A stretch of DNA of 36,199 bases from contig ML213512.1 in NCBI GenBank assembly GCA_004369045.1, forward strand, positions 742,554 through 778,752, read 5' to 3'. Source of the DNA: Heliocybe sulcata (Eukaryota > Basidiomycota > Agaricomycetes > Gloeophyllales > Gloeophyllaceae). A program made the position numbers and the translations under genes. The stretch's first letter is position 1; the number at the start of each line of letters is the position of its first letter. The notes under the pieces were generated by a model that made no database searches, had not been told where the DNA came from, and saw only the letters and a program-made list of their open reading frames with translations. Shown one piece after another: positions 7,265-29,099 of this stretch.

Positions 7265-7386
7265 CTGAACGCCACGTCCCTGAGGGTATCACCCGAAGTT
7301 GCTGATCTATAATGCAAGCGAATTTCCTCGCCCGGATTTCTTCAACATTCGCGCTTGACCATTTAACATGAACTTCGTCATCGCAA

Positions 7387-7833
7387 AAGACGGCCTCTTT
7401 AGTCAGCTTCAGCTCAGTGCCACCCCGTCTGCACCGGAAGCGGTTCGTCCTGGGGACTGACACCAGACCGTTTTGTGGAGACTGACGCGCCGGAAGGTTC
7501 GGGAGGAGCCACGGAGGGAGGACCAGCGCCGGCCCAAGCGAGTAACGGAGGAGCGGCATCTAGTCTCATGTGAACGATGGACAAACAGTGTCTTCCAATG
7601 CCGTAGGTCGTCGCTTGATGAACGATGCAGTCTTCGAGAGGACTAGGTATGGTCGTTAAATTAATTCATTTCAGATCAATCAACAAACCAACCCCATGCA
7701 AACCGCCCGCAACCCTGCCATAGGCTTGGTTCGGCAAGCGAATATGGGGCCCCCGCCAGGCTACAATATATACTTTGAGCATCTGCCGGCGTATGGCGAG
7801 GTGCCGATGCGGCGTCCTCCACACAGTCCATAG
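7387..7833 (+). pseudogene. Gene A, copy 1: broken first exon, intact last exon
   Basis: Homologue of the gene at 26516-26959. The position of the start codon there reads AAGACGG here, so the ATG is lost. Around 7436-7460 this copy is 2 nt shorter, which shifts the frame, and one frame then meets a TGA. The shifted frame still reads LTPDRFVETDAPEGSGGATE, matching LTPEGFVEIDEQESSGGATE in copy 2. The last exon (7675-7833) is fully open, the same length as in copy 2 (159 nt), and most differences from it are silent or conservative, ending RPPHSP then TAG. Either decay is recent or the last exon is still used in another transcript. Confidence 0.65.
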
Positions 7834-8192
7834 ACAAAGGGAGTCCATGCCTCTCGAATTTTGCTGATGCCAAGGGAAAAGAAACTCTGAGTATTGACAA
7901 CGACTCCCACAATGAACATTGCTGATGTCTGCACCGTCTAGAGCATCGGTGGCACACAGACTGACTAGAGTTGAATGCATGTTGTCTCCTTCCACTGTAT
8001 CGTGTATCTATAGATTGCGCTTGGGAAGCTCTTGAATGAGAGCTTGAGTCCACAGAGTGCATAGGCATACGACGTCGTAGAGAGTCATGCCGAGTGCCGC
8101 CTCTGCTCTACCTGTGGCACAATCTCGACATGCCTCTCAGTGGGAGGAACAACGCATTTTCCACGTAAAACATGGATTGGCCATCGCCCGCC

Positions 8193-8198
8193 TATATA
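8193..8198 (+). promoter_or_regulatory. Probable TATA box of gene B copy 1
   Basis: CCTATATAGTACAAC lies about 210 bp upstream of the ATG at 8405. The matching place in copy 2 (about 27318-27325) has the weaker TTATACTA. The long implied leader contains upstream ATGs, including a short MTGICR frame that is kept in both copies. The assignment is inference. Confidence 0.35.
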
Positions 8199-8404
8199 GT
8201 ACAACACTACTCAGCTGAGACCATCCACGACCGCGATACATGCGCAGCTACCTTATTATTCTTGCCTTGCATGACCACACAAGGGCCAAAGCCACAATGA
8301 CCGGCATTTGCCGAACTTGGTTATAAGCCACGATTGTGGCACCGACAAGCGCGTCTTCCACCTCTACCACATCCGCTCTTGACGCGTCTTCACCTCACCG
8401 CAGT

Positions 8405-9015
8405 ATGGGGAGATACCCAATAAAATGGAGCCGCAAACCCTACGGTCGAGAACTGAGCGTTCTCCACGCGACGCCAATCCCGCAATACGCTGAGGACGTG
8501 AAGAATGTGGTGGACGGCGGACGGGTCGATGAGTTGACAGAGCTCGCTGCGGAGAACATCGGACCCGCGACAGAGCCCCAAGAGGCCTCGTCGATTAGGG
8601 AATCAGAACCAGCGGTGCCATCCGCGTGGTCTACGACGCCGGCCGCAATGCCACATCCTGTGCCACCTGCTGGGACGACTGAGCCTTCCGACCAAGGCCA
8701 CTCCGGCATGATGTCGGACCTCTCAGCGGCCGGGACCGGAAAACAGGGAAGACATCCGCAGGAGGCAGGGGCTTTACAACAAGTAGTATGTCGTCCATCC
8801 GCCGAGCGGTGGCGAGGGACATAAAATCTGACATTGGTTGTTAGACGCAGGTACAGAATCGAACATCCGAAACAACCAACGCTCGTCAGAGCACCGCTAC
8901 AGTGCCCGCATGGGTCCACGAAGACGATTATATGGAGGACGAAACGTCCGAGGTGGACAACTCTTCGGAGTACATGTATGAGTCCGAAATAGAATCCGAC
9001 GGCTCGGATGCTTGA
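8405..9015 (+). CDS. Gene B, copy 1: unknown protein with acidic C-terminal tail
   Basis: Exons 8405-8785 and 8845-9015 around a 59-nt GTATGT..TTAG intron give 183 aa. The N-terminus MGRYPIKWSRKPYGRELSVL is basic and strongly conserved in copy 2. The middle is Pro/Ala/Ser/Glu-rich and probably disordered. The tail is acidic with Ser/Tyr/Met (SSEYMYESEIESDGSDA). Exon 2 has the same length (171 nt) in both copies. The frame stays open upstream of the ATG to a GTG at 8336, and the indel there between copies is a multiple of three. An alternative start uses a mini-exon at 8297 (MTGICRT) spliced through GTTATA to the AG at 8402-8403, which keeps frame. I do not recognise the family; a basic head with an acidic tail could suit nucleic-acid or chromatin binding, but that is speculation. 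Confidence 0.6.
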
Positions 9016-9880
9016 TGATAAGCCCAGGCACCGTAGTAGAGTCGGTGAGTGAGCTGCCCTACGTCTGAAGAACCGATCATAATATGTGACGTGGTCTTCC
9101 AGGCGAGACGAGCACCGGTGAAGGGCTGTGTGCATCAGCCAAGGTGTAGGAGGCTCTCTGGAGCTCGACAGATGCCAGATACGACGGGTGCTAAGGGATA
9201 GTCGTTGAGTTTTCGACTATATCATGTCTTTGGATGTTTACCTTTATTCATAAACGATGCTATTTTCTTGTGCGGGACATGCGTTGTTCGTCCGTTATTG
9301 GTTTACAGAAGAACCCTATGCCCCTCAGTGCTAGGTAAGAGTTCTATCGTTCCCGGCCCTAATGCTGCAAACGGCGTAAAGTCCAAAACGCACCTGTGCC
9401 GTTAGATCATGCAAGACCAGTAATACCTTTGCTCTCCTGAGTTCGTCCTGACGCGTCGACACAACATTCACTGGCGACGCCCAGACACGTCGGCTTACAG
9501 TACTTCCAGAGAGGAAGTCCTCCTGCTTCAGGCAAGTTGGCGCTTTCCTTCCAACGGCCTGACCCACCAGACCAGGAGTGCTTGCCGACGATGCCGGGGA
9601 CATGACAGAGACTTTGACATTTCTTTCCAAGACACTGCGGTCGTGAGCTTCATGAAAGCGAGCGTCCTACACGTAGTACACGTGCTTTTGTACAACAGCA
9701 TTCGCCTTGTATATCGTATTCCCGGCATGAGGTCTGCTCGCCTGTGCCAAAAGGGCCTGTCCAAGAGTCCATCAGGAATCAGGTAGGAGTCTAGGACTGG
9801 TTCGCCTACAAATGTCGGCTTCTGCCGAGAAGAGATATAAACCTCGCATCGTGGTCATCTCATCTTCACTACGAACCACC
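9016..9880. other. End of cassette copy 1 and intergenic
   Basis: Up to about 9670 the sequence is the 3' flank of the cassette, alignable in patches with 28141-28810. The rest is the upstream region of the gene at 9881. No further gene is supported. Confidence 0.4.
9834..9841 (+). promoter_or_regulatory. TATA box of the repeat-built small gene
   Basis: GATATAAA lies about 40 bp upstream of the ATG at 9881, fitting a short leader. It also argues against the upstream in-frame ATG at 9812 as the start, since that lies 5' of the box. Confidence 0.5.
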
Positions 9881-10651
9881 ATGTCTGCCGACGCGACTCC
9901 GGCTCTCCCGCAAAGTCTGGATGCCTTTATTGAAGAGGCCCTCGCGAACGCCCTTGCATCTTCTCGGATAACATCTGACGACCTGCCTGTGGCACGGAAC
10001 AAAGCTCGTCGGGCGGTGGCAGACCACGATCTGAATACTTTCATTGAGAATGCTCTCACAGAGGCTCTGGCCACCAGTAGCATCACACTCGATGACGTCG
10101 ACACGGCCCGGGTAAATGTTCGCCGTGCAGTGGCAGAAAATCTCCTGGCTTTAGATGCTACAGAGGACATCCTATCCATTGATGAGGTCTTGGCACGTGA
10201 ACTTGCTGCGAGTCACATCGATGAGAATGACATGGAAATTGTCGGGATGAAGGAGGGTAGTGGCGAACAGGCGAGAACCATCCAGACTGTTGATTTAATG
10301 ATCGGGACTGGACGGTATGTTCTTTGTTCGGCGGTATGGAAGAAATACTGAAAAAAGATTGATAATTAGCCTACCCAGCCGAGCAAGCGAAATTACCAAC
10401 CAAAGCAGACACGTCTCCAACACCGATGAAGACTCCGTGTATACCGATCCCTCCAAAATTGTCTTCGCCAATCTGTCACACTTCAGCGACAACTCCTTCT
10501 TGGACAGGGAAGAGGAAATGCTGACTAGGAGTTATATGATGTATGCAATTTCATTCGCACCTTCTTGAAACACAGACTTATAACGCATAGGGTCTTTGAG
10601 GCGGGCGACGTAGTCCTCAATATGGACGACAATGGTGTAGTGGAGATGTAG
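9881..10651 (+). CDS. Small protein with a 38-residue internal repeat
   Basis: Three exons, 9881-10314, 10370-10540 and 10591-10651, give 221 aa; introns are 55 and 50 nt and frame holds across both. Residues 13-48 (LDAFIEEALANALASSRITS.. DDLPVARNKARRAVA) repeat as residues 51-86 (LNTFIENALTEALATSSITL.. DDVDTARVNVRRAVA) with a 38-residue period; a third, weaker unit covers about 97-122 (ILSIDEVLARELAASHIDEN). Each unit looks like two amphipathic helices. The C-terminal half is hydrophilic (NTDEDSVYTDPSK.., VFEAGDVVLNMDDNGVVEM). No signal peptide or membrane segment. The internal repetition suggests a helical-repeat or multimerising protein. I do not recognise the family. Confidence 0.6.
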
Positions 10652-11325
10652 ACCGAGGGACGGACAAGACACAAGAGTAGTGAGAGATTGGATGCTTCCC
10701 AAGATATGGCCAGGACATTAGCTCATATTCATGATCCATGGGCCAAAATTTCCAGTATCGCGTTGCGTTCACCACGGCCAGCGAGGTCGACGTTCGCTGT
10801 TTCCAGGGAGCTTGAGATTGATACATCGTGACATATGAGAGCGCAGACTGACTACAGACATAGCAGTTTGTGAGCAGATCTAGGTGGCATCGCAGGAGAT
10901 AGGCATACAACCGCAATGCCGTACGATATTTCGCTCGCATTCACACCATTGGTCCGGCAACGACCGATGGTAAGTGACAGCGTGTTTACTCCGAGCGCCG
11001 AGCTCTGAACCGTCCTGCTCATCCTATCAGATATTATCAGCGACTTGCGAAGACCTAATTCGTAGTAGTACATCCTCAATGGATGTTATGTCTCTTGAGT
11101 GAATGTCATTTTGATAAATATTCTATTGTATCCGTCGCTATCTCGACCTCCGAGATGCCCTCGTCGCCGTCAGCGATGTTCCAGGTGCGACAATTTTCAC
11201 TTGACGTCCCGTCTCATGTTGTTAGTAGCGCATGTGTTTCCCGAGCTTCCGAAGGTGCCCTCGAAACATTGCGAGCGGTGTTCCTGGGTCTTCTTGTGCT
11301 GGAACCCGAGTACGCACTGTTACCA

Positions 11326-11353
11326 ATAAGGGCTTTGGGCCCAAAGCCCTTAT
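11326..11353. repeat. Perfect 28-bp palindrome
   Basis: The left half ATAAGGGCTTTGGG is followed directly by its exact reverse complement with no spacer. It could extrude a cruciform, be a dimeric protein site, or act in a transcript end. It lies about 500 bp upstream of the gene at 11850. Sequence is certain, role unknown. Confidence 0.7.
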
Positions 11354-11745
11354 CATCCCTCTGAATACAAGTACAGCATCGTATAGTGACTACCTAATTT
11401 TATATGCTCAAGCCCGAACCCGAGCACCGTCATTTAAGCCTCCGAATATTATGAATGAAGCACGTCGACCTGCCTGCTGAATACAATAGCGGGAAGCCAG
11501 GGACAACAGACGAAACTCGATAACATCTCGGCTGGAGGAAACAAGCCGATGCCTAGCGTCAGCGAAGATTCGTGCTCCTCGAGCCGAGCGAGTAGCTCCC
11601 CATTCGAAGAGGCAAGGCGCCTGCATGTGCCTACAACGGGGGTATGTGCGCTTGTCGGCGGAGAAAGCACTGCAAAGGATCTTCTCCCCGATTATCCTAT
11701 CCATAAGAGGGCACAAGGGCGCGGCTGATACTCATCCGGTGAAGT

Positions 11746-11779
11746 CCGAGCACAGCCTTTCACGATAAGATATATATAA
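11746..11779 (+). promoter_or_regulatory. Promoter of paralogue 1: CCGAGCACAGC box and TATA
   Basis: TATATATAA at 11771-11779 lies about 75 bp before the ATG at 11850. About 15 bp upstream is CCGAGCACAGC (11746-11756), which recurs at 14174-14184 at similar distance from the TATA of the second paralogue. The shared box is directly seen; regulatory meaning is inference. Confidence 0.5.
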
Positions 11780-11849
11780 GAGCTGTTCACGCTTCTAGAT
11801 CCATAACGCAAACCAACCCCACTATACCAGCACTCACCTGCTCTCAATA

Positions 11850-12868
11850 ATGGTTTCGAACGCCGATAATAGCACCACTTTCGCCGGTCAGGCTTCCGCC
11901 CACGACACGCAAATTTGCACTTTTCCTGCCACTTTCGACCTCGTCCATGATGGTGCCGGTGCGGCGTCCACACTCGCGAATCCGAATAACGAGGTAGGCA
12001 TATCTAACGCGATAGTTGGCCTTCGAAAAATCTAAAGTCTCGTTATTAGTCTCCTCTTCCGACCAAAAACTTAATAACGGACCGAGTGCCGGAGTACATG
12101 AACTTCCCCGCTCACGGTCTGTGTGACTTCACGCACTTCCCGAGCGCCATCACTACGGACAGCTGGCACTCGGATATAACTCCGCAGCACACCCAACAGC
12201 TCCAGGAGGGCTTCACACCCCGCCTTGTCATGCCGGAGTATGCACCATACAGCCTGGAGGCATCTCCTTCGGCACCCCTCCTTTCCACGAAGGCCCTTCC
12301 TAGCGAAGACCTTGTCGATGACATCCCTCCTATCGGTGACGACGGGCAGCCATGCCCGTCATTGTCCCCTTACTCAATGGACATCGACTACAACCTCGGC
12401 GCGCCCCTCGACACCTTAGGCATCGACTACGACAACCCCTTCTCATCGTTCCACGCCGGCTTATTCAACTCCGAGTGTCCTCCATCTCCCAGCACTGCGT
12501 CGACCGACTCGTCATTCGACTCTCCTCTATCAACTCCCTTGCTCACCGGTCTCAACCTCGCGTGTCTGGAGTGCGTCGCGCATGCACACGACAAAAACTA
12601 CATGTGCACCACCTGCGGCTTCGCGCCTCTGTTCAGCACCGAAATGGGCTTCGAGGCCGGTGTCGAGGAGGAACATGAGTGGATGCGCGGGAGGATCATG
12701 GGGAACGACGATGGCATGGTGATGGATATCGATGGAGACAACCGCCCTTATGCTATACTAGGGCTCGACGTCGATGACATCGCCAGCAATTCTGGTGCGC
12801 CTTCCAGCCGTGATTTTCATTCCCAGCGGGGCGAGGGGAACGCGCCCCAAGCGGCTTTTGCACTTTGA
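11850..12868 (+). CDS. Unknown acidic protein with paired CxxC motifs (paralogue 1)
   Basis: Exons 11850-11993 and 12050-12868, joined in phase 0 across a 56-nt GTAGGC..TTATTAG intron, give 320 aa. Exon 1 encodes a Ser/Thr/Ala-rich 48-residue segment. Exon 2 is rich in Ser, Pro and Asp with DYNLGAPLDTLGIDYDNPFS, then a Ser/Pro run leading into STPLLTGLNLACLECVAHAH and KNYMCTTCGFAPLF. The two CxxC pairs (CLEC and CTTC, 12 residues between them) could bind a metal ion. An acidic tail follows. The intron boundary, exon 1 size, promoter box and the LLTGLN core match the gene at 14269, so the two are probable paralogues. An acidic, Ser/Pro-rich protein with a possible zinc knuckle could be a transcriptional regulator, but I do not recognise the family. 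Confidence 0.6.
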
Positions 12869-14173
12869 ATGATGGATATCGATATGAGGGCAGTGAAGAC
12901 GTCTGTGGCGTAGATATGAGCCGAAGACGCCATTGTACAGTTACTGTTCCGTTTGCCCTCTGTCGCCACCTGTGATCCTGTATCCCTGAATTTGTATGAA
13001 TAAAGCGGATGCCAGTACCCTGCCAGCTCTGCAGTAGAATGCTTGTTTAAGCGTGGGCGCCCACATGTCCCCATATTCAACGAGCGTGGATCGCGACCCG
13101 GTCAAGGGAATGAAGCCCATCACCCAGACGAGCATGATGGGGACGCGATGGCTTCCGATCACCAGAAGCAACGCGGACATGTTTCAGCTCTGCGTCGCAC
13201 TCGCCCATAACACGTCGACAGAGCCAGCAAAAGAATGGCACCGGACCCTGGTCATCCTGACATCGAGTCCCTTCCGCCAGATGTCCATGCCAGCTTGCAT
13301 CCTACCCCATACTCGAACTGCATCGAAAGCCAGTCGAGCCCAGGTGGCGTCAACAGCTGACGTGAGGTCAGAGGCATGCAATGGCTAGGCACATTCCGAT
13401 TTCGCTCGAAGCTGCTATATCGCACGGAATGCGGGCGCATGCCGCACGTTCATCCTGTAGCCCCCGTGCTGCTTTGTTGAGATCCGGCGACTCGGATTTT
13501 ACTATAGCAGGATGGGCGCCTAGGCTAAAAGGACGGGAATACTTCTAAGTCGAAGACACCCGGGATAGGACGTGAGGCTGTCTCGAACAAATAATATATC
13601 CATTTGAGAGCGAGGGCTCTGAGTCCATTGCGATTGTTGAAGCCCCAGAAGCAGTGTACTTTGCCCGGGATGGCCGAGCACCGCCGATGGTTCGAGCGAC
13701 AGTTGCTCCAGAGCAGCGCAAGAAGGGTTCAACCAGATAATACCACAAAGGCAGCCATGGCAGACGCTGGACTTTGAAACGAGAAGCCGGAGCGGAAGCA
13801 CTCGTGGTGTGTAGATCAGAAAGGCGGCCAAACCCTGTGATACAGTCTGTCGATCGCCATATTGTCCGTACAAGGATGGCTGTATGATCATAGCAAGAAG
13901 TATGCTACAGCCTCGCAGTTCTTCTTCACACCCCAGATCTCCATCAGAGGGGACAGCCAGTGCGATGGAATCTCGAGCATTATCGTACGCCAATCTTGAA
14001 GGCTTCGAATAGCCACGACAACCTCGAGCCGGCGGCATGTATCTATGCAAAAGGCAATTCCTCAGGACAATGGCAGTGCGAGAAGAATGGAAGCGAGGCG
14101 AAGGGAGCACTCACCCTTGCTGATCTTAGCCCTAAGTGGGCATAAGAGCATTAACACAGTTCGCCGGGTCTAG
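12869..14173. other. Spacer between the paralogues
   Basis: About 1.3 kb with long but unrecognisable frames on the minus strand (13520-14110 and pieces in 12941-13440, some with short hydrophobic stretches). I could not splice them into a believable protein. Parts before the second promoter resemble the region upstream of the first paralogue (a CCTCGAGCCG word in each), suggesting the duplication included 5' flanking DNA. Confidence 0.35.
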
Positions 14174-14202
14174 CCGAGCACAGCTTCTCAGGAAGATATA
14201 AG
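14174..14202 (+). promoter_or_regulatory. Promoter of paralogue 2: CCGAGCACAGC box and TATA
   Basis: CCGAGCACAGC at 14174-14184 is followed by GATATAAG at 14195-14202, about 70 bp before the ATG at 14269. Order and spacing match the promoter of the gene at 11850. Confidence 0.5.
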
Positions 14203-14268
14203 GCAGCTCTGAGAGCGCACTTCAGCACCTAACCCGTACCGACCATCCGCAAGTGCAAGTATCCTCGT

Positions 14269-15440
14269 ATGATGCATTATTCCGCAGCCGAATCCAATTC
14301 TGCCGATCTGCGAGCCAGGAGTCACTGCCTTGCCTCCCACATCTCCTCGATGCCCTACCTCGATGCCGGGACCACAGACGTGGTGTCAACGTCAGATTCG
14401 AACAGCCAGGTGAGCGACGCTTTCATATGAAGCCAACGAGTGCTCTAAAATTTCGTTATTAGTCGTACCGCCAGATACAGGACCAAAAAACGAACCCAAG
14501 GGTTGAGCGAGTGAGTCAACTGCAAGAGGACCGCACCTCCTGGCCCGTGCAGGGGATAGGCGATGGCCAAGAGAGACACAGTGCCGTTCGTCCAGTAATA
14601 CACGGCCGCCACGTGTTCCCCTTTATCATAGGGTATTCGAGTCTTCCGACTAACCAGCTCGCATCTAATGCGATGCCACGCCGTGCCACCACCGCTTCGA
14701 TATGGTGGACGAACTACCCCGAGGTCCCGACCCAACAGCTAATGCCTGACGACCCGCGGGCTACGCGTTTCCGCTTTGACTCCGCCGATGGAGAGCGCCA
14801 CACGGAGGGCCCAGGCGAGAGCGTCGCCTGGCCTCCCGATCTTACTGCCTACGCCCAGTTCAAGAGGGCCGTTTTCAATCCGTTTGCTGAGGACGACCAG
14901 GAACCTATTCCATGGCGTCGCGCCGCCACCCCTTTGAGAGTGTTGCCTGCGTCGGCGACGACTACGTCCTCGCTGCCGTCTTCAGACTACACAAGTTCTC
15001 CATGGCCAATCGCCCGAAGCGCTCTCCTTGCCGGCCTGAACATGAGCTCCGTCAGTTATGGGACGAACATCTACCAGGGCCAGGATGATGCCGTCACCAA
15101 CGTGGGGGTAGCCGACACCCACGATGAACAGTATGATGAAGGGCTGCGGCGGCACAGTGTGGACGAAGAACCTCTCGAGGTGGTCCCGCTGATGAGACGA
15201 GAGAACCGACCTCGCCAACGAGTCGAGAGACGCGAGGCTCATCAACACCTGAAGCTGCTTAAGCTGCTGTCGCGCCGCGCCTCTCTCAGAGCAGAGACTA
15301 GGAAACGCTTCTCTGGCGAGGCCGGCAGGCCCGCACTTCTCCCTCCGTCAACACACTACTCGCTGTGTGAGGAAGAAGAGATGCCGAGCGCGCAGATGCA
15401 GAACGCTCTGGCCTTGGATCTTGGACCAAGGGTGATGTGA
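14269..15440 (+). CDS. Unknown protein, paralogue 2 (CxxC motifs lost)
   Basis: Exons 14269-14409 and 14463-15440, joined in phase 0 across a 53-nt GTGAGC..TTATTAG intron, give 372 aa. Exon 1 encodes 47 residues (MMHYSAAESNSADLRARSHC..) against 48 in paralogue 1, and both acceptors read TCGTTATTAG then TC. Exon 2 contains WWTNYPEVPTQQLMPDD, VFNPFAEDDQEPIPW, then SPWPIARSALLAGLNMSSVS, which lines up with the LLTGLN core of paralogue 1, but the cysteine pairs after it are absent. A basic, Leu/Arg/His-rich region (HQHLKLLKLLSRRASLRAET) near residues 310-330 could be a helical nucleic-acid or nuclear-targeting segment. An unusual stretch after exon 2 begins (about residues 75-115) could hide a further intron. 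Function unknown. Confidence 0.55.
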
Positions 15441-16885
15441 GCGCGGATTTGGCGGAGCAGAAGCAGGTCAGCGAGTCGTAATACAGACGAGTAAGGCTCC
15501 TCCGGTGCCCCTGTACGAATATTGTGTACCCTTTCACTGTGAAATCTCCGAGTGTTGTCTGCTGTACTATATTCCTCCTGTCCTTTTCCTTGTATGACGG
15601 CCGATAAAGCATCGCATAACAGTTGCATGTCCCGCGTTCGAAAAATGTGACCCCTGGATGTTCCACTCCGCGAGCCGCGACCTAATCGCAGTACAAGACA
15701 GATTGGGAGACAATTCAAGTACACAGTGGCAAGACGGTCCGGCTTCTGCGCGTGTTGAACCGATAGCAGGCCCGGATGACTGTGGAACACGAGGAATGCA
15801 TATTGAGACACCGCAACCTTGCAGCGATATGCGAGTTTCATGAGGTCTGGCCAATGGATCAACGTTCAACCATTGAGACGCGACCAAACGAAGTGGAGGC
15901 AAGACCATCAAGCAATGGCGATATCCGGGGAACGTTTCCGAGCGGGATTGATTCGACGCACAGCGTACCCAGTGACCTCGGGAGTACTTTGACTGGGCGA
16001 GATATCTCCACTGAGCTGCAGAACAGCTCCTGAGGAGACTCCGAAAATCAGGCCAACATCCTAGCATGTGACACCTGGAAGCACATCGTAGTATCAAAGT
16101 ACCACAGCCAACGAAGCGATCTCGATCTGACGTCCAGATGGACCACAAGTCAATGAGCGTCAAGGCGCGGGCTAGAATCAGGACTCAAACAAGAACATGG
16201 TCATTCTGGCCAGTTTCGGATCAGTTCTCTGTCCATTTCTACAGACTACAAAAGGCAGACACGTACCTCGATCCGACGATACACTTGTATGTTATCACTG
16301 TCTTCTGTAATGAATAGATATCGTCTCTTGTTCAAGATGATGAGGGCATCTTCAGATGTTCGAAAGCAACTGTGATTCTGGAGCAAGCCATGGTCGGCGC
16401 TGCATCTAGGCAGCCGCGTAGTTTCGACGCAAAGAAAGATAGACTTCGCATGCGATAACCGCGACAGACTTCAGAGCAAGCTGCTAGGCCCGTGAAGACG
16501 GCCGGTAGTACAGGGGCTCCCGCAATCTCGAGTGTACATGGAATATACGACGGCTGCAGCCATTACCTGAGTTACGGGACGAGAAAGGACAGAGAAAAGA
16601 GCCAGATGCAGCTGAAGGAGATTGCTCCTGCAAGCTACCAGAAGATAAAGTGCTTGGGCACTACGAGACTGGATGAAGAGAGGTGAGGTTCACGAGAGCA
16701 TATCGATGAATAAACTCCAACGAAGTACAGCAGTGCAGCCACATAAAGCAAGTGCACAGCCACGATCGCTCTCGGATGCGGCAAATGCAAGATGTGGCGA
16801 CGGTTGGGCTCCGTTCGCGATGTGTGTTAGGTGGGAGAAGAGATGGATTGTCAGAGCCACTGCGTTCTAGGTACGAGTAGACGAC
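15441..16885. other. Intergenic, possible unrecognised small gene
   Basis: A plus-strand frame at 15776-16033 (85 aa, MTVEHEECILRHRNLAAICE..) ends in a hydrophilic, Ser/Thr-rich segment and could be a small gene or an exon. Another plus frame at 15658-15840 overlaps it. A 198-codon minus frame (16163-15567) covers the same DNA. None has a recognisable relative or clear splice pattern, so none is annotated. 16034-16885 shows nothing definite. Confidence 0.3.
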
Positions 16886-17040
16886 GTCCGAACAGATGTG
16901 GACGTCCCACGAATACACATCTGTTCGGACACGGGATAGGTGGCCCCCGCGAACTCCCGAACATCTCCGTATTTATATGAATACAGAGATGTTCGAACCC
17001 TCGGTATACAAGAGACCTTCTGCTGTTCGAACAGATGTGA
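16886..17040. repeat. Cluster of hairpin-forming repeats around the CATCTGTTCGGAC word
   Basis: Three inverted repeats follow each other. Arms 16886-16900 and 16916-16930 (CACATCTGTTCGGAC and its exact complement) are 15 bp, with a 15-nt loop. Arms 16958-16973 and 16980-16995 match at 15 of 16 positions around a 6-nt loop. CTGTTCGAACAG at 17023-17034 is a 12-bp palindrome followed by ATGTGAG. The same 15-mer recurs exactly at 23301-23315. Confidence 0.65.
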
Positions 17041-18857: not shown

Positions 18858-18903
18858 TCCCTCTGAGCTCATGTACTATTGTCTCCCTCTGAGCTCATGT
18901 ACT
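18858..18903 (+). repeat. 20-bp direct repeat, two copies
   Basis: TCCCTCTGAGCTCATGTACT occurs at 18858-18877 and again at 18884-18903, offset 26 bp, and the following ATTG/GTTG is also similar. A simple local duplication. Confidence 0.8.
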
Positions 18904-19050
18904 GTTGCCTTTGTACATCTGTGCTACTACTTCTTGGGCAACAAATCATGGCTTTGAAGTGATTACTGGTGCCATCGGTACAGGAAGAGGGAGCGGTGCC
19001 ATGGGTAGTTTCGTGCCAGGATATGTCGCAAGCAATGGCAGCCAGAGGGT

Positions 19051-19077
19051 GAAGCTTGAAGCTTGAGCTTGAAGCTT
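19051..19077 (+). repeat. GAAGCTT short tandem repeat
   Basis: About four GAAGCTT/GAGCTT units in a row. Each GAAGCTT contains the palindrome AAGCTT, so the tract can fold on itself. No role apparent. Confidence 0.7.
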
Positions 19078-20211
19078 TGTAGGAATGCAGCCTCTGGAAC
19101 GCGACTGGTACGTCATGGAGTGCTGAAGAAGCTATTTCGCCGTGGGCCTGTCCTCAAAAATTATACCTCGTCCACGACGTGCTCAGACCGGGCTGAGTAC
19201 TCCTGTCCCTCCTCCACGCCAGGTTTTTCGAGACATCAGGTTCCTCTTACGGAGTCATTCGCCATCTCAAGCGCGTGGTGCGCTTCACGAGGCCGAGTAT
19301 ATCCCCTCTGGATTTGGGTACAGCCCGTCATGGGGTGAAAGCAAGGTCGGGAGCCTAGTACGGTATGTCCCCTCCATTTATCTCCCAGCCAAGTCAGCCC
19401 CTTCCGCACAGCGGGAATGCCTCGCCACGCGTCCCGTTCACCCACCGAGATCAGCGCAAATCGCCAACGTCCGAGCCGCCATCCGAGCCGGCCTCGAACG
19501 GTCTCCCTCTGCCATCCCTGTCATTCTCTGCGCCGTGTCGAAAGTCTCGATACCCGTCTCCGGTGCCGTGACCTAGGAGCTCTCGCAGACGCCCTCTCCT
19601 CGCAGCGGCCCGCGCGATCCTTGTCTGTCTGCATATGTCGCGGGCTCATGGGCTTGGCTTCGATACAACCCGGTGCCAGTCCTTCGGCCTGCTCTTCTCT
19701 GGTCCGAACTCCGTCTCTACATCCAATGCCAATCCAAGAAAGGAGAGGGGCCGGGGGAGCGGGCACAAAGGAGGTGCGGATGCAGCACTTCCCGAGGTGC
19801 TGATTGTGGCGGTAAGAGAGTAGGAGGCTTACTTCGGGAGTCAGAGCGACCAGGCAGTCCGCCAAGGCTCTGCACGCGCCGGTGCTCCTCCGATTCCTCG
19901 GGATGGGCATTGGGCCACAGCTCGGTCGTAATGGACATACCATCAATTTCTCTTTGTCGAGCACTAACGACAACCACCCGTCAGCCTTGGAATCGAGGGC
20001 GCGCTGGTCTTCACTTGTTCTTGCCACCACGCTCCATTTCCGTCCCCTTTCCCCTCTGCCTCGCGACTGTTCCTCTTCGTCGTCAGGCATTGCCGCGCGC
20101 AGCAGAGCCAGGACGCGACGTGCGGGAGGATTTATTAGATGAATGTCAACGGTTCGTTGAAGTCGTCATGAATCTGTCTTTCTGTTGACTAACTAGTGTT
20201 TTTTCTAGATC

Positions 20212-22210
20212 TCACACTCCACTACGCCTGCTGAAAGTCTGCGCTCTCGCAAACTAGCGATAGCTGAGGATGGAAGAAGACGCGCGGCTGAGAGGATTGC
20301 GGAGACGTATCGAGGGTGCAAGTGCGTTGTCTCATACTGTGTCTCGTTGCTGCGTGACTAATTATTCCTGTAGTAGTGCGAACACTACCTCGACTCAGCC
20401 TTTCCGCTTTCTTTGCCTGGCTCCCGCAGCCGTACGACAGACCGCGACTTCCAGTGTTGGACATTTCTCGCGCGCGCAGCGCGTCTTGTTGTCCTCGTTG
20501 TTCATTCACCCTGCCATTGCATGCCCGACGGCACTCGACAACGTGTTCGTCCTTCTCAGTCATGCCAGCAAGGCCGCCCAGCGTCTCCCATTGTCGTCGG
20601 CCACGCTACGGCCTTGTAACAATGCGGTAATTCAACACTGTATATATGGATCGACTCCCAGTGACCCGCGCCTCCTGCAGGCGTTGTCCTCCCTCGACCT
20701 CACACTTACTTGACCTGTTGGAAACCTGCGCATCCGCTGAGTGGCGATGGTTGAAGCTGGAAGAAGACGTGCTGCTGGGAGGATCGTGTGCAAGTACAAG
20801 TACGTTGTCTGGTGGTGTGTCTCGATGCTGCGCGGCTAATGACTCCGGCAGAGATGCGAGCACCATCTCGACCCGGGCTCTCCCACTCTTTTCGCCTGAC
20901 TTCCACATTCCTCCGACAAACCACGACCTCCGGGACTGTCCCGCGCTGGATGTCTCACACGCACAACGTGCTCTTGTCGTCGTCCTCCTTCTCCATCGAA
21001 CCCGGCCCTCGCCTCCCGCTGTCATCCGGCCACGCTACGGCCCTATGACGAGGCAGACATTTGACAATATGTATATGGATCGACTCCCGGTGACCCGCGC
21101 CTCCCGCAGGCGTTGTTTTCCCTCGACCTCGCACTTACTCGACCTGTTGGAAACCTGCGCATCTGCTGAGCAGCGATGGTTGACGATGGAAGAGGATGGC
21201 TGCTGAGGGGATCGTCGAGAAGTACAGGGCATGCCAGTGCGTTTTCTGGTGCTGCGTCTCGATGCTGCGTGACTAATTACTCCTGCAGGAATGCGAGCAC
21301 TATCTCGACTTGGGCCCTCCCGCTCTCTTGGCCTGACTTCCGCCTTCGGGGCTGTCCCGCGCTGAATGTCTCGTGCGCACAACGCGCTCTCGTCGTCGTC
21401 GTTCTTCTCCATCGAACCCCGCCCTCGCCTTCCCGACATGTCCGGACGACGTCTATCTCCCAGCGGCGGCGTGCTCCTCAGTCCTGCGGGTGAGGGCGCG
21501 CAGCGCCTCCCGCTGTCATCCGGCCACGCCACGGCCCTATGGCGAGGTAGCTATTCGACAATGTGTATATGAATCGTCTTCCGGTGACCCGCATCCCTTT
21601 CAGGCTTACGATACTTGCAGTACCGCGCTGTCACTGTCGTATTCGCCGCCTCGCCATCTTTCCAGCCTTGGACTATCTCTGCACGGATCGTCTTCCATGA
21701 CCAGTGGAGCCTGCGTACGCGGCACGTGCGCATGTCCATGATGTCACGCTCCCTTCGTCGACGATGTCGATATGGACCACAACCAGCAAAGACGGAGTTC
21801 TCGTCGTTTTCGAGGTCCATCCCGCAATCCTGCCATTTCCTTACTCGACGCTTTGTATACCTCTCGTCCTCGGCTGGTGTAGGCATCGGAGGAGCAGCGC
21901 GCCAGTGCAGTTTGCTGTCCTGCTCCGCTCGTCTCTGATGCCCTTCCAGCAACTGTCTACCCCACTGTAAACATAGCTCGCGGCGCGGCGATTGCCTTCA
22001 CTTGACGTGAACCTGCAAGCTCCCGACACCATCCACACACATGCCTCCTGCCATCGCCAGTCATTCGACAAAGTATAGACGCTCGGTCTTCCGACGCGTG
22101 CCTATCGGATGACCGGCGCTTCCAGCTGTTGTTGGCCGCACTACGGCTCTCTGACAAGGCGGCTACTTGACAATGTGCATATGGATCGTCTTCCGGTGAC
22201 CCGCGTATCC
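20212..22210 (+). repeat. Degenerate tandem array with intron-like signals
   Basis: A landmark reading roughly TATATGGATCGACTCCCAGT, followed by GACCCGC, recurs at about 20645, 21073, 21567 and 22180, each preceded by CCACGCTACGGCC-like sequence at about 20598, 21031, 21525 and 22136. Spacing is therefore about 428, 494 and 613 bp. A second landmark, CTCACACTT..GACCTGTTGGAAACC, appears at about 20700 and 21132 with a diverged version at 20212. The first three units hold GTACG/GTGCAAG-like donors, a CTAATTAC or CTAATGAC branch-like site and an acceptor before GTGCGAAC/ATGCGAGC. Frames in the units differ, so the array is not one protein. It seems to have arisen by tandem duplication of part of a spliced gene. 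Confidence 0.65.
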
Positions 22211-22662
22211 TTTCCCTACTGCGTCTCGTCGTCGTATATGCCATTGTGCCATCTTCATGCCGTGATCGTCCTCCAATGACGAGTGGCTGCCATCCTCTTT
22301 CTTAACACGTCTCGTCTTCCGGCGGTCTGGGTGTCGGCGTCCTCGCTTTCCTCGATGGGAACTCTGCGACGTGACCGCTGTGCAGCTCGGTTCTCACACG
22401 GCTCCCACCACTGTCTACAGCAATCAAACTCGCCGCCATCTTCACACATCGTGAACCTACAAGATGCACTGCCGGTGCTCGACGTGCTCGGCACTGTCCC
22501 CGTACATATCCCGCTTCGTAATTGTACCGCATATTGTTGCTCTGCACCTGCTCTGTAGCCGTAGCATAGTACGCTGCGTCTTACGTTGCATCTCCCTCGT
22601 ATCCTCGATGCACATACCCGCGGCTTGCAGTTTATATTATTTGAGGTCACCTGTATAATATA
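22211..22662. other. Diverged tail of the array
   Basis: A segment at about 22235-22280 (GATCGTCCTCCAATGACGAG) resembles 21650-21705 (GATCGTCTTCCATGACCAG), so this may be a further, shorter unit. The rest has no recognisable content. Confidence 0.35.
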
Positions 22663-22760
22663 GCATCCTTGGTCGAGTGGTATTATTGCCCGTCGTTATA
22701 ATCTGTATGTATTAATAGTTTACGTTTATCTAGAGGTCCTGTGTTCGAATCCCAGTAATG
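22663..22760 (+). ncRNA. tRNA-like sequence with Pol III A and B boxes
   Basis: TGGTCGAGTGG (22670-22680) fits the A-box consensus, and GTTCGAATCC (22743-22752) fits the B box apart from its first base. They are 73 nt apart, longer than in a plain tRNA, so an intron or insertion of roughly 25-30 nt would be needed. The TPsiC stem has one mismatch and the acceptor arms (GCATCCT against TAATGTC) pair poorly. It is more likely a tRNA pseudogene or a tRNA-derived SINE head than a working tRNA. No anticodon is assigned. Confidence 0.35.
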
Positions 22761-23093
22761 TCGCTTGTATTGTAGCATTGTGTGCAGTAATAGTTGCGTA
22801 GGTAACTAGACTAATAATAGACTGATAATAATAGGATAGAGTGATGAAATAAGCGTCCCGAAAGAGTATCGGCGATAAAACCGATCTTTTTTCGCCCATG
22901 GCGATCAGGTCCAGCGAGCCTGCCTAGGCCTTGCAAGGACCTCTGTCGGCCTTGGCGGTCCCTTGCAAGGTCCATTGCAAGGTCCATTGCAATAAATAAC
23001 TGATCTATTGCGATGCATCGGAAGGTCTCTCGGCATTGGCGCCTTGTATGGCCTTGCAAGGCCTTGCAAGGCTCCGCGGAAATTTCCGACAAT

Positions 23094-24166
23094 AGCTTCA
23101 CGTAGATGACGGAAAGGGTTTCAGAGTCAAGGTAGGAATATGACACAAGGGTCGCTAAGCAGGTCTGTTCAAAGGTCCGTGTAGCTGAGCGCGTCCTACG
23201 AGTGACTACTTCACATATTCGAGATGAGGTCACATCGGTTCACACTTTGGACTGTTTGATGTATTCAGACTGTCGAAGATCTTTGTATTCTTAGCCAGAT
23301 CACATCTGTTCGGACCTGAGCTATTCAAGGTGTTCAGATCACGCGACTATCTTTGTATTCTCGGGCACCTCACATCTGTTCGCACTAGCGTACAGATATA
23401 CGCTGAACGCAGTGAGCTGCACCGTAAAGCCTTACAAAAGTGATGAGTATCACCGAATCTTGATCAATCTCGTCTATATGAAGCTTCAACGAATCGTACA
23501 GTAATATATCTATCACCGCGTGGTTCTCAAGCTGTCACGGAAATGCAATAAAACGCTAAGCATGCTGCTAATAAATAGCTTAATTCTTCGTCGAGTACTT
23601 GTCCTATCCAAGAGTTGTGATCAGCAGCTGAATTAACTTGGTGGATCGAATATTGATCTCCTCTTCGTTCTGTGCTTGTCATGCAGAACATCGCATGACA
23701 TACCTAAGTATATAAATAATTGCGAAATATTCTTGGTTTCTTTGAGTACATGCCATCGACTTTCTTGCCCTCCTTGGTCTGAGGAAGACGCTGAATCGTG
23801 GTGTCGACTCTGCTGAGCGACCTCTGAGTTTCCGGGGTCATGGGCAGTCAGGCCGGCCTCTAACTTGGCGCCTACTAGTTCTCCAGCTCATGGCAAGTCT
23901 TCCAAGTCGGAAGGAGTACAGTAACCACGAAATATTCGGGCAACCTGCAAGTATAGCACCGGAAATATTCAAGCCACTTGAGAGCCGTGTCAAAGAGAAG
24001 GCACCCTGCCTCTGCCGATCTCAGTGAACTCCGCTGCTCCATTTGTGCAAGTACTGCGGTGCGCCAGACCAATTCCTTTCCCCGAGCCTCAAGAATTATT
24101 CGGACGAGCATCACGCAGTCGCTCGCACTACGCCCGTGTTTCCAAGGCCGAGGTCTGAGCGATACT
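23094..24166. other. Intergenic between repeat island and transporter
   Basis: Holds the 70-bp tandem repeat (listed separately) and AT-richer DNA without convincing genes. A plus frame running from 23978 into the transporter is taken as leader, because its first 63 codons look unlike a transporter N-terminus. Confidence 0.4.
23231..23400 (+). repeat. 70-bp tandem repeat, about 2.4 units
   Basis: Units begin at 23231 (CACATCGGTTCACAC), 23301 (CACATCTGTTCGGAC) and 23371 (CACATCTGTTCGCAC), exactly 70 bp apart, and the first two share ATCTTTGTATTCT near their ends. The leading 15-mer of unit 2 is identical to 16916-16930 on the other side of the repeat island. Confidence 0.75.
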
Positions 24167-25747
24167 ATGCAGGCTCCGAAGGTCATTCCGACCGTGCTCG
24201 ACTTCACCAAGAAGCCGAGCCATTCTGCGTCATCCAGCTTCCTGCAATTGCGAGGGGACGCGAACGCAACTTCCAGAGCGGAGAGCATAAGTGACGTGGC
24301 AAGAGTAGAGACCGTAGAGTCTTCTGCCACCGAAAATGAGCCCGTTGACGATCCGGAGCTTAAGCTACCCAAGCTTAAATCGCTCGCTATCATCATTCTC
24401 ACGAATGCACTCCTGCAGGTCTGTAATTCCCTCATTGTATTCATTCTCGCTGACACCTGGGCAGGTGTCTTTCTTCATTATCGTCTCCTCCTCCAGTGAG
24501 TATGCAGCCTCGCTGGGCGGTACAGCAACATTTTCCGGTCTTGTGATCGGTATACCCACTGTGTTTTCTGGTCTGACGCTTATCCCTCTGATGAAACTTG
24601 ACGAAGGTAGAGTGACTTCAGCACTCTCGCAAGGAATAAGGTGCCAACTCATTTATTTCCAGGTGTCTACAAACGCCCACTGCATTTGGCATGTGCAGCC
24701 AGCGTACTTGGAAACATGCTCTACGGCCTTGCCTACAAAGCGCGCTTCCTATACCTCATCCTGATATCCCGCATGGTCCTCGGTGTATCCTTCGCATTCT
24801 GGATGTACTGCAAGCGCTACTGCTCAGATCCGCGGATCGTCGGCGTACGTCGTCGAACTGCACTGGCCGGGTGGCTCGTCGTCGGCCAAGGCTCTGGTTT
24901 CAGTGTCGGACCGTTCCTCGGCGGATTGCTATACCGCGTAGGATTCAAAAACGAAGTATTCAACGGGTATACTAGTCCAGGATGGCTGATGTCCGCTGTG
25001 TGGCTCGCCTTCTGGGTCGCGGTAGCCCTTGTCTTCGAGGACGTCAAGGCCACTCCGCCTCCTCCACCTCGTACGACCGAGATCGAGTTAAGCGATGTGA
25101 CTAGTGCATCGGACCCTGCCCCCCCATCGCCCAGAAATACAGACCGCGACGAACCGAAAATGACGTTGCAGCGCTGGGGTGTCGTCGTGTGCATGTGCTG
25201 GTACGCCATGACGTGCTTCTTCATCCTCGGTGCATGGGAAGCCAACATCCCCGTCTACACGGGGGCAAAGTTTCACTACTCGCCCTTCGCTGCCGGTAAT
25301 CTCATCGCTCTCGGCGGTATCACCACTTTCCCCTTCCTGTTCGCAAACCTCTTCCTGGCCCGGCGGGTGCAGGACCGTCACACACTGGCTGTCGGCTCAG
25401 CCATCGGTTTAGCGGGGTTGTTGATCATGATTGCGTTCCTCCAGACCGACACGGTCCAATTCGGGACACTATACTTCTGCTGGTTCCTCGTGGCCCTCGG
25501 GTTTAACCTCGCCAGCACTGTCACGCTTAGCTTGCTTTCGAAGCAGCTTCCTGGAGAGTGGAACGGACGGATTAGTTTGGCGATACAGTACAGCAACTAC
25601 ACCGGGCGAGTTACGGGAGCTGTCTGGGGCGGTGCCGGTGTTAAAGTGGGGATGCTCAATTATCTTGGTCTGCAGATTGCAATCGTCGGGATTGGGGCTG
25701 TCATGTTCTTGACGCTATGGAGGGACTTGAAGGCCAAGACGGGTTAA
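24167..25747 (+). CDS. Major facilitator superfamily (MFS) transporter
   Basis: A polytopic membrane protein likely to move a small solute by proton coupling; substrate unknown. Exons 24167-24418, 24465-24606 and 24663-25747 (introns 46 and 56 nt) give 492 aa, near the usual MFS length. About 65 hydrophilic residues precede the first membrane segment (LKSLAIIILTNALLQVSFFI). Later segments include LGGTATFSGLVIGIPTVFSG, HLACAASVLGNMLYGLAY, YLILISRMVLGVSFAFW and the Gly-rich GWLVVGQGSGFSVGPFLGG, which fits the glycine-rich TM5 region. A charged loop with PPPPPRTTEIELSD.. separates the two halves. The second half ends MFLTLWRDLKAKTG. Overall it resembles the CLN7/MFSD8-like and SPX-MFS branch of fungal MFS proteins, but no SPX domain is present. 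Confidence 0.85.
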
Positions 25748-26515
25748 CGGTCCTTGCACAATCATGTCATACTGGTCCTTCCGCACTCAATGCATGATGA
25801 GTGTATCTGACCTGTCACAGGCGTCGATTGCAAAGGCGGAGACCATGAGGGCATCCATAATGACCATTAACGAGGGCATTATGTTAGCCCAACGGTTGAT
25901 AGATAGTATGTCTGCTCGAAAGTCAACCGTTCAACCGTCCCGATCAAGACGATCGATGATCCCTTCAACACATACGTCGTAGACTCCTAGCTGCATAAAT
26001 AAAGTCGGCGGGGAACAGCGCAGTGAAGCTGATTAGCCTGACCCGCTCATAATGGTATTCCAGATGGAAGAGCGCCCTGGGGAGAGCAGGTCTGCCACCA
26101 GAAAGGCAGACAGGCACCGTGTTTCGATACGAGAGCTATGACCAACATGGCTGCGTCTCTTAATACGCCGTCTGCACTGATTCTTCACTTCCTACAAGCG
26201 TGAGCAGCAATTGCCACCAAATTAGGCGGTACCACGATTCCTGGTGGAACAACGTCCTTCATCTACGCTTCTCTCGGTCCTGGACAACTATCGTCAAGAG
26301 CTGGTGCCAAGATGAGTCTATAATATGTCCGAAAGGATCCTTGTAAATAATTATACCATGGAGTGCGCGAGGCGGGCCTCAACGCCACAACCCTGATGGC
26401 CAAAGGGGGCCGGCATCAGCCGAAGCTCCTGATCGATAACACAACTGAACCAGCTCGCCTGCATCTTTCCAACACTCGCGCATGACCATCAACGTGAACC
26501 TCTCCACCGCACAAA
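25748..26515. other. Intergenic
   Basis: Probably the 3' end of the transporter transcript and then the start of cassette copy 2 at about 26380. A 72-codon plus frame (25764-25982) has no features of a real protein. Confidence 0.4.
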
Positions 26516-26959
26516 ATGCCCATTCTGGTCAGCTTTAGCTCACTGCCACCTCGTCTGCGCCGGAAGGCGTACATCCCCGAAGGACTAACACCGGAGGGCT
26601 TCGTGGAGATTGACGAACAGGAGAGCTCGGGAGGAGCCACGGAGGGAGGACCAGCGGCGGCCGGGGCGAGCAACGGAGGAGCGGTTGTCGCTCATGGCAT
26701 TGCGGCACCAACGGTATCTTCCAGCGCTGTACGTTGCCGCTCAATGAGCGATACAGTTTTCGACATGACTAGGTATGGTCGTTAAATTAATCCATTTCAG
26801 ATCAATCAAACCACCAACCCCATGCAAATTGCGCGCAACCATGCCATAGGCTTGGTTCGGCAAGCGAATATGGGGCCACCGCCGGGCTACGATTTATACT
26901 TCGAACATCTGCCGGCCTATGGCGAGGTGCCGATGCGACCTCCTCCTTATAGTCTATAA
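26516..26959 (+). CDS. Gene A, copy 2: small unknown protein
   Basis: Exons 26516-26728 and 26801-26959 across a 72-nt GTACGT..TTTCAG intron, phase 0, give 123 aa. Exon 1: MPILVSFSSLPPRLRRKAYI, then LTPEGFVEIDEQ and a Gly/Ala-rich linker. Exon 2: QIARNHAIGLVRQANMGPPP then GYDLYFEHLPAYGEVPMRPP and YSL. Without splicing the frame ends shortly after the donor. Exon 2 is preserved in length and mostly in protein sequence in copy 1, which supports it as coding. No signal peptide, membrane span or known motif. Family not recognised. Confidence 0.55.
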
Positions 26960-27541
26960 ATAAAGGGCGTCTACGCCGCTCGTATATCGTTGATACGAAG
27001 GAAAGAAACAGTGAGGATTGACAATGACTCCCGCACTGAATATTGCTGATGTCTTCGCTGTCAAGAGCATCGGTGGCATTCAGGCTGACTGGAGTTGAAT
27101 GCGCGTTATCTCCTTTTATTGTGTAATGTATCGCTGTGAATTGAGCTTGCTTGGCTCTCCAGTGCGAGCTCGGACCAATTTAGTGCATGCGGCTTGGATA
27201 GCGTGTATAGTCGTCGCAAGTGCCGTCCCTGCTCTACCTGTGCCACAATCTCGACATGGCTCTGAGCACGAGGGAGAACACCTTTTCCAACCCAAGACAT
27301 GGATCGGCCATCGCCCACTTATACTATTACAACATTGATTAGCTGAGACCATCCATAATCGCGATGCATCCACAGCCACCTTATTATTCTTCCCTTGCAT
27401 GACCACACAAAGGCCAAAGCCACAATGACCGGCATTTGCCGAGCGTGGTTATAAGCCACGACTGTGGCACCAGCAAACGCGTCTTCCACCTCCACCACAC
27501 TCACTCTTGACGCGTCGACTCCTGACCATCGTCACTGTAGT
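26960..27541. other. Spacer between genes A and B in copy 2
   Basis: Alignable with 7834-8404 in copy 1. It probably holds the gene A 3' end and the gene B promoter and leader, including the conserved AAAGCCACAATGACCGGCAT start-like sequence near 27418-27437 (copy 1: 8288-8307). Confidence 0.45.
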
Positions 27542-28140
27542 ATGGGGAACTACCCGATAAAATGGAGCCGGAAACCATATGGTCGAGAACTGAGCGTTCT
27601 CCACGCGACGCCAATCCCGAAATACACTGGGGATGTGGGGAATGCGGAGGACGGCGGATGGGTCTGGAAGATGGCAGCACTCCCTGTGGAGAACAACGGA
27701 CCCGCCATAGAGCATAAAAAGGCCTCTTCGATCAACGAGGCAGCGGCGTCATCCACGAGGTATGCGACGCCCCCCGCCGTGCCACATCCTGTGACACCTG
27801 TTGGGATGACCGAGCCTACCAATGAGGAGCACTCTGATGCGATGGTGAACCAATTTCATGCCACAGCCGGTGAACAAGGGGGCCAGACGTGGGGAGCAGG
27901 AACCGCAGACCAAGTGGTATGTCGTCCATCCACCGGCGAGCGAGATAACATCTAAGATTTGGTGGTTAGGCGCAGCCTCAGTCAGTAACGCAAAACACCA
28001 ACCCTGCCCAGGGAGCCACTTCCGCGCCCGTATGGGACCATGACGAATACGATATGGAAGAGGATGACATCTCCGAGATGGACGATTCCTCGGAATACAT
28101 GTACGAGTCCGAAGTAGATTCTGATGGCTCGGATGCTTGA
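27542..28140 (+). CDS. Gene B, copy 2: unknown protein with acidic C-terminal tail
   Basis: Exons 27542-27916 and 27970-28140 around a 53-nt GTATGT..GTTAG intron give 181 aa, against 183 in copy 1. The N-terminus MGNYPIKWSRKPYGRELSVL and the tail SSEYMYESEVDSDGSDA are nearly unchanged, while the middle (Ala/Glu/Thr/Pro-rich) has diverged. Donor and acceptor positions are the same and exon 2 is 171 nt in both. Conservation of frame, splice sites and both ends, with a variable middle, points to protein-level constraint in both copies. An alternative 5' mini-exon (MTGICRA) at about 27425 could be spliced to the AG just before TATGGGG, as in copy 1. Function unknown. Confidence 0.6.
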
Positions 28141-29099
28141 ATGGGAACTTCGGCGCCGTAGCGAAGTCGGGAGCATAAGTGAGCAAGTCATGTTACATCC
28201 GACGACTTGATAATGATGTGTTAATGCCGAGTCTAGGGACAGGAGCGTCTACGAAAAGCTGAGTGTTGAAGCTAGGGATATGAGGCTCTCTGGCGCTTGG
28301 AAAATGCCAGATACGTCGGGTGCTAAGGCATGGTGTTGAGCTTGCAATGATTTACTACGTTTCTGAATGTTTACCTTCCATTAAAAATGATGCTTGTCTC
28401 TCGTGGGACAAGTGGGCCGGTGAATGCAGCTCGTCTCATGGGTTCACGAAGTAGACTGAGCGCGTCAAGGCCTCTAAGCATCCTATCGTTTCGGATCCTG
28501 GTTGCCAACAGTATCAAGGCCGTTGCAGCCGACAGTGCAATGCACTGGAAGATCCTCGCCGTCCGGCACTGCGTACGGAAAATCGGCGCATGGTCAACCA
28601 GTGAAGCTCAGGCAAACCCGGTTTACAGGAGCCTGCGTTGAAAAACTCTCCCGGTTTGAAAGAGCCCGCGCTTTCTTACATCCACCTGTCCCATCCAGAT
28701 GAGTCGTTGCAGTTCTTTTACAGAGGCAAGACCAGACATGCACAAGACAGAAAGGCTGCATTTCCTTCCCAAGACTGCATAGTCGGCGAAGCTTCATGAA
28801 AGCGAACAGCGAGGTCCAAGCATACCAGTGATATCGATGTGGGTCCAGGACGCGGGTCGCGTCGAAGTGTGTGTGGCCCTGTTTGCTGTGGCCTCTCGCC
28901 CACCGACCGACGGCCTGGAAGTTCTGACAGGAGGAGCGAATATGCACTCTCTACCAATGCCAAACGGACAAACAGCCAGGTCAATATACTAATACACAAG
29001 TGGGTATGCTACAAATATACATTGAGAGACATGACCAAGGTGCATATGCTACAATCAAGACTTCTTGCGAAAAGCCATGCCGAAATATCACGGCGCCGC
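28141..29099. other. Cassette 3' flank and intergenic
   Basis: To about 28810 this is the 3' flank of cassette copy 2. The remainder up to 29100 is downstream of the DNA polymerase gene. No further gene is supported. Confidence 0.4.

Follow-up and report, generated by a model that had tools for sequence, protein, structure and literature searches.

Two genes of the basidiomycete Heliocybe sulcata, which we term A and B, form a cassette that is present in three diverged copies at one locus, and they are probably an ordinary lineage-restricted pair that was kept after local duplication (an evolutionary reading). Two of the copies lie within the window that we analyzed, a 36,199-nucleotide (nt) stretch of contig ML213512.1 (C10:742554-778752). 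The third, which is inverted, lies outside it at C10:789220-791072, roughly 20 kb beyond copy 2 (about 46667-48519 in window numbering). By sequence, the pair was copied locally, with two copies on inverted arms that also carry a gene that we call X and a third copy beside one arm. In this reading, all three copies found have retained gene B as a coding gene, whereas gene A is retained in two and has lost its 5′ half in the third.

The initial annotation described a duplicated cassette whose coding and spacer DNA align, and a blastn comparison of the window with itself bears this out: 7285-9279 matches 26412-28410 at 74.7% identity over 2031 columns (E=0), and this is the single strong long-distance repeat within the window. 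In a MAFFT alignment, weaker, patchy homology extends the copies to about 9665 and 28810. What the initial annotation had overlooked was the third copy, in which A is open and the stop codon of B is lost. When two segments of copy 2 (26400-27325 and 27325-28140) were used as queries against the genome (31.6 Mb, 51 contigs), each matched three places, namely copies 2, 1, and 3, with copies 1 and 3 at 75-78% identity to the queries. Searches at the protein level returned the identical three places only, for A at E up to 10 and for B at E up to 1; they are the better witness, as very common words are skipped by the DNA search, whose counts are lower bounds. All three copies are 74-76% identical and together span 42 kb. 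The strand and order of the genes are constant, and A and B are separated by 571-582 nt in every copy. Copies 2 and 3 also share 28931-29094 (81%) and 29313-29472 (88%), past the end of the homology with copy 1. The features of the two copies in the window are:

7285..9665, + strand: copy 1 of the A-B cassette (blastn and MAFFT; strong to 9279, patchy to about 9665)
7390..7602, + strand: remnant of gene A exon 1 in copy 1, with no ATG, a 2-nt frameshift, and an in-frame stop (alignment)
7603..7674, + strand: gene A intron position in copy 1, 72 nt, GTAGGT...CAG (splice reading)
7675..7833, + strand: gene A exon 2 in copy 1, open, 52 codons plus stop, PPGY kept and second motif lost (RPPH) (frame comparison)
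8405..8785, + strand: gene B exon 1 in copy 1, 127 codons (splice and frame comparison)
8786..8844, + strand: gene B intron in copy 1, 59 nt, GTATGT...TTAG (splice comparison)
8845..9015, + strand: gene B exon 2 in copy 1, 171 nt with stop, acidic tail (frame comparison)
26412..28810, + strand: copy 2 of the A-B cassette (blastn and MAFFT; two patches in common with copy 3 extend to 29472)
26516..26728, + strand: gene A exon 1 in copy 2, 71 codons (splice and frame reading)
26729..26800, + strand: gene A intron in copy 2, 72 nt, GTACGT...CAG (splice reading)
26801..26959, + strand: gene A exon 2 in copy 2, 52 codons plus stop, two PPxY motifs (frame reading and motif count)
27542..27916, + strand: gene B exon 1 in copy 2, 125 codons (splice and frame comparison)
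27917..27969, + strand: gene B intron in copy 2, 53 nt (splice comparison)
27970..28140, + strand: gene B exon 2 in copy 2, 171 nt with stop (frame comparison)

Gene B has two exons and a phase-0 intron (GTATGT...TTAG) in all three copies (59, 53, and 59 nt; downstream acceptors are also possible). As first described, its frame, its splice sites, and a 171-nt exon 2 (stop included) are kept in copies 1 and 2, which share the stop position and would yield a product of about 182 amino acids. From sequence comparison, we consider the open frame in all copies to be better evidence for selection on gene B than dN/dS (the ratio of nonsynonymous to synonymous substitution rates). The coding frame has no stops in any of the three copies, whereas each of the two remaining sense frames of exon 1 has 3-8. 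In simulations of neutral drift, which started from the present-day sequences, gene B stayed stop-free with P of 0.068, 0.036, and 0.098 per branch, for a product of about 2e-4 that considers stops alone. Pairwise gaps are multiples of three in 6 of 8 cases in the exons of B, as compared to 4 of 18 in the spacer between A and B and 0 of 6 in the intron of B (these pairwise counts are not independent of each other); the two exceptions in the exons of B come from a single 1-nt difference at the stop. Over the whole gene, dN/dS is below 1 rather than near it (0.66 in a three-branch codon model; likelihood ratio 6.29, p=0.012 versus 1). It is lowest at residues 1-30 (0.25, p=0.0044), in segments that were picked after the alignment had been seen. 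We rely on the likelihood values over the Nei-Gojobori values, which were lower (0.42-0.65).

The predicted product of gene B is disordered by the charge-hydropathy rule in all three copies. Its head is basic, with a net charge of +4 in residues 1-28, and its Tyr/Ser-rich tail is acidic (−14 to −17 over the last 40). A structure model of the exon 1 frame (137 amino acids, including a few residues from the intron), built from a two-sequence alignment, has a mean predicted local distance difference test (pLDDT) score of 49. We propose that B is a flexible protein that would join partners at its two ends, and that the copies would persist for dosage or slight divergence. We also considered an antisense gene over B and rejected it: the long antisense frame at 8443-9216 of copy 1 is broken up into separate, shorter frames in copies 2 and 3, and within 378 nt of exon 1 every copy has a stop in each antisense frame (for copy 1, the stop is the one that ends the 8443-9216 frame).

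Gene A, as the initial annotation stated, is open in copy 2 and broken in copy 1 by loss of the ATG and a 2-nt shift. If a 72-nt intron is assumed, copies 2 and 3 both have an open frame (123 and 121 residues); the intron of copy 3 is 71 nt, and the 1-nt deletion in that copy falls inside it, so the frame remains open. A 28-nt intron was dropped, both because it would be shorter than fungal introns are known to be and because the 72-nt version keeps copy 3 open. Only copy 1 is broken, and only in the 5′ half: it has ACG where copy 2 has ATG, followed by a 2-nt shift, an in-frame stop, and a second 2-nt change downstream (MAFFT alignment), and the exon 2 frame cannot be reached across the intron from any of the three ATGs in 7370-7602. 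Exon 2 of this copy still resembles exon 2 of the others. Perhaps an internal ATG still allows it to be expressed, or the break may have happened recently. Both intact gene A proteins score as ordered by the charge-hydropathy rule, and a model of the 3′ frame (57 amino acids, again from a two-sequence alignment) has a mean pLDDT of 63 and two predicted helices. Neither this model nor that of B is strong enough to support a fold search.

The initial annotation took this unequal fate of A and B as a sign of selection on B. The unequal fate is real in copy 1, but copy 3 tempers it: there, A is intact and the changed gene is B. The contrast is further weakened because A is intact in two of the three copies and because the 3′ exon of A in copy 1 is open, with no sign of relaxed constraint on that branch (0.38). 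For B itself, the open frames, the mostly triplet gaps, and the overall dN/dS point to selection, although only the first 30 codons show it clearly.

Several results weigh against a retained gene pair. The middle of gene B is indistinguishable from neutral (dN/dS of 0.93, p=0.76), exon 2 is not clearly constrained (0.58, p=0.087), and in a free-ratio fit copy 2 of B has a ratio of 0.96, although the differences in ratio are not significant (p=0.29). In copy 3, the stop codon of B is gone and the frame continues for 22 more codons. For gene A, neither exon 2 across the three copies (0.52, p=0.11) nor the whole gene in copies 2 and 3 (0.64, p=0.13) is distinguishable from neutral in the codon model. 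The free-ratio fit for exon 2 of A gives 6.6 for copy 3 and the 0.38 mentioned above for the broken copy 1 (p=0.027 for a difference in ratio, from few changes). Simulated drift keeps gene A stop-free with P of about 0.4, and the open frame of A is therefore weak evidence. Selection tests on gene A are low in power. The Nei-Gojobori values for its last 45 codons are lower than the likelihood ones, at 0.20-0.38.

These results raise the possibility that both genes are relics in a drifting duplicated segment and that B is open by luck. The breakage of A in copy 1 and the loss of the B stop in copy 3 would fit, as would the finding that a block upstream of B (80-86% identity) is conserved like the exons of B (68-90%). 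However, B has no stop or frameshift before its end in any copy, with the joint probability given above, its splice sites are kept, and its first 30 codons are constrained (p=0.004). We therefore regard drifting relics as rather unlikely.

We found no relatives that would identify either protein. The initial annotation had placed neither of them in a recognized family, and library searches agree: A and B have no match above the cut-off in Pfam, A and B of copy 2 have no match in NCBIfam, and in the PDB, B of copy 2 gave only unconvincing hits (E of 1.3 and 1.7) and A gave none. Weak Pfam hits to SRP-alpha_N (E=0.041) and DUF5837 (E=0.087) were under the cut-off and were taken as chance. There was no confirmed match in the viral_contigs collection for the exon 1 frame of B or the exon 2 frame of A, or in the prokaryotic genome_contigs collection for exon 1 of B. 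"Orphan" thus means here without relatives in the viral and prokaryotic collections and the family libraries; fungal proteomes are outside this scope. That no homologue outside this genome turned up also counts against a retained gene pair. A search of 7000-29600 against Rfam at gathering scores gave no match, and an RNA gene was rejected. A mating-type locus was rejected as well: all 14 STE3 matches are on contigs C11 or C16, both Homeobox_KN matches are on C16 and C1, and none are on C10. The STE3-type receptor matches on two contigs also mark the genome as that of a basidiomycete. Literature searches gave nothing on the A-B pair, but word searches are poorly suited to such a find.

Could the cassette instead be a low-copy or dying non-autonomous mobile element, with A and B as cargo or chance frames? 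Its copies are in both orientations, and Ty3/Gypsy-like frames are present (by eye) in the same 75 kb. But only three places were found in 31.6 Mb, by DNA and by protein, and all are inside 42 kb, so a common transposon family, which the initial annotation had considered, is unlikely. Terminal inverted or direct repeats were not above shuffles in the 200-bp ends of any of the three copies (with ends placed from the alignments), and A and B have no Pfam match above the cut-off to a transposase, an integrase, or a reverse transcriptase. Also, the cassette is not alone in being duplicated: X and a second region, Y, are duplicated as well. We consider a mobile element to be very improbable.

The positions of X and Y bear on how the pair was copied:

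11225..12966, + strand: gene X region; inverted counterpart at 64699-62919 (window numbering), about 50 kb away
16143..16764, + strand: region Y, a second island of inverted homology; counterpart at 62511-61898 (window numbering)

The main exon frame of gene X is at 12050-12865, its second copy is at C10:805563-806318, and no further copy was found. The two copies are 67% identical over the matched protein (dN/dS of 0.43, dS of 0.465), and gene X has no Pfam match. A weak third island (23876-23978, 65%, E=0.001) continues the order. Because the islands and the cassette share the order X, Y, cassette on both sides, with the X copies at mirrored positions, X-Y-...-copy 2 and X'-Y'-...-copy 3 fit the two decayed, 18-19 kb arms of an inverted segmental duplication. 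Copy 1 appears as a third copy beside the left arm. We infer that a single event produced both arms, from the shared order and from similar dS: for gene B, dS is 0.455 between copies 1 and 2, 0.627 between copies 1 and 3, and 0.621 between the arm copies 2 and 3, which is near the value for X.

Between the islands, the arms are mostly unlike. On the left arm are an MFS transporter and a series of repeats, and the right arm has a fungal protein kinase (PF17667) and a Ty3/Gypsy-like element (by eye). The repeats (20197-22217, between copies 1 and 2) are diverged, with units roughly 430-610 bp apart that are 63-89% alike and pyrimidine-rich on the + strand; their family was not identified. The transporter (24716-25747, E=4e-18) is just upstream of copy 2, and no DNA counterpart was seen on the other arm.

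Within the cassette, conservation is uneven:

8181..8404, + strand: likely gene B promoter or 5′ leader, with TATAAG at 8322-8327

This block, the 224 nt upstream of gene B, is 80-86% identical between copies, as compared to 70-79% for the next block upstream and 68-69% for the middle of B. In copy 1, TATAAG is 83 nt upstream of the ATG of B. From its conservation and position, we think that the block is likely the promoter of B. This matters for another possibility, which is that A and B are one unit with a bicistronic transcript. In Agaricomycetes, up to 8% of transcribed genes are reported to be in polycistronic transcripts and to be transcribed independently as well (PMC4503453). Like the tandem genes described there, A and B are neighbors on the same strand in a fixed order, with similar spacing in all three copies. 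Unlike them, the pair is known from sequence alone and B seemingly has its own promoter, with the TATA-like box and the conserved block before it; and B is kept where A is broken. A single bicistronic unit is thus a doubtful alternative to two separately transcribed genes.

Which copy is the odd one out also varies along the segment (clustering P=0.0002 versus shuffling; chi-square 63.6, 22 degrees of freedom, p=6e-6). This patchy pattern fits gene conversion among the copies, but uneven constraint would look similar.

Gene A has a feature that might hint at function. Its protein has two PPxY motifs (PPGY and PPPY) in copies 2 and 3, and PPGY alone in copy 1; the C-terminal end in copy 3 is PPPGYDIYFEHLPAYGEVPMRPPPYSP. 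For the two intact proteins, shuffling the residues gave two such motifs in 0.2% and 0.1% of cases. As the motif was spotted after the fact, which counts against leaning on it, the shuffle figure is a lead only. At two places in the genome, on C11 near 964-966 kb and on C3 near 620-622 kb, three WW matches precede HECT matches, which is the make-up of NEDD4/Rsp5 ligases; yeast has one gene of this type. Gene A would then be a small adaptor whose PPxY motifs would bind the WW domains of such a ligase. Given two motifs in A and two NEDD4/Rsp5-like ligases in the genome, this role is a testable guess, and on sequence grounds we rate it as possible but unlikely. Known PPxY adaptors of NEDD4/Rsp5 ubiquitin ligases include the alpha-arrestins (PMC9105457 and PMC2810449). 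Gene A resembles them in having two PPxY motifs in a genome with three-WW ligases. It differs in that it is only 121-123 amino acids, its binding is only predicted, and no arrestin or other adaptor domain was seen (no Pfam family at E<=1 for copies 2 and 3). A broader version also seems unlikely. In it, the co-duplicated pair would be lineage-restricted, A would serve a NEDD4-type ligase as a new, minimal PPxY adaptor, B would be a disordered partner that is constrained at its ends and drifts in its middle, and the copies would exchange sequence by gene conversion.

Elsewhere in the window, a match to the fingers of DNA polymerase lambda (E=3e-9) and a weak BRCT match under the cut-off (E=0.017) are on the minus strand at 29768-31478, and these frames are perhaps one polymerase X gene divided by introns. 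An Alg9-like mannosyltransferase (Glyco_transf_22, E=7e-26) is at 32898-33671, also on the minus strand. A 29-bp perfect inverted repeat is at 588-616 and 1108-1136, about 500 bp apart.

Lineage-restricted (orphan) gene families that have grown by local segmental duplication are known in fungi. The A-B pair is similar to these families in having few copies at one locus, no recognized domain, moderate dN/dS, and one member that is decaying; decay of one gene after duplication is an ordinary fate of duplicated genes. It differs in that two unrelated genes and their spacer were duplicated together and that the arms are inverted and much decayed. If A and B are lineage-restricted, then they are two more young fungal genes of unknown function, with no sign of a new kind of system. 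The three copies at one locus are an internal record of which parts are constrained in proteins that are otherwise unrecognizable. The first 30 residues of B are the clearest case, and the tail of B and the end of A with the PPxY motifs are possible ones.

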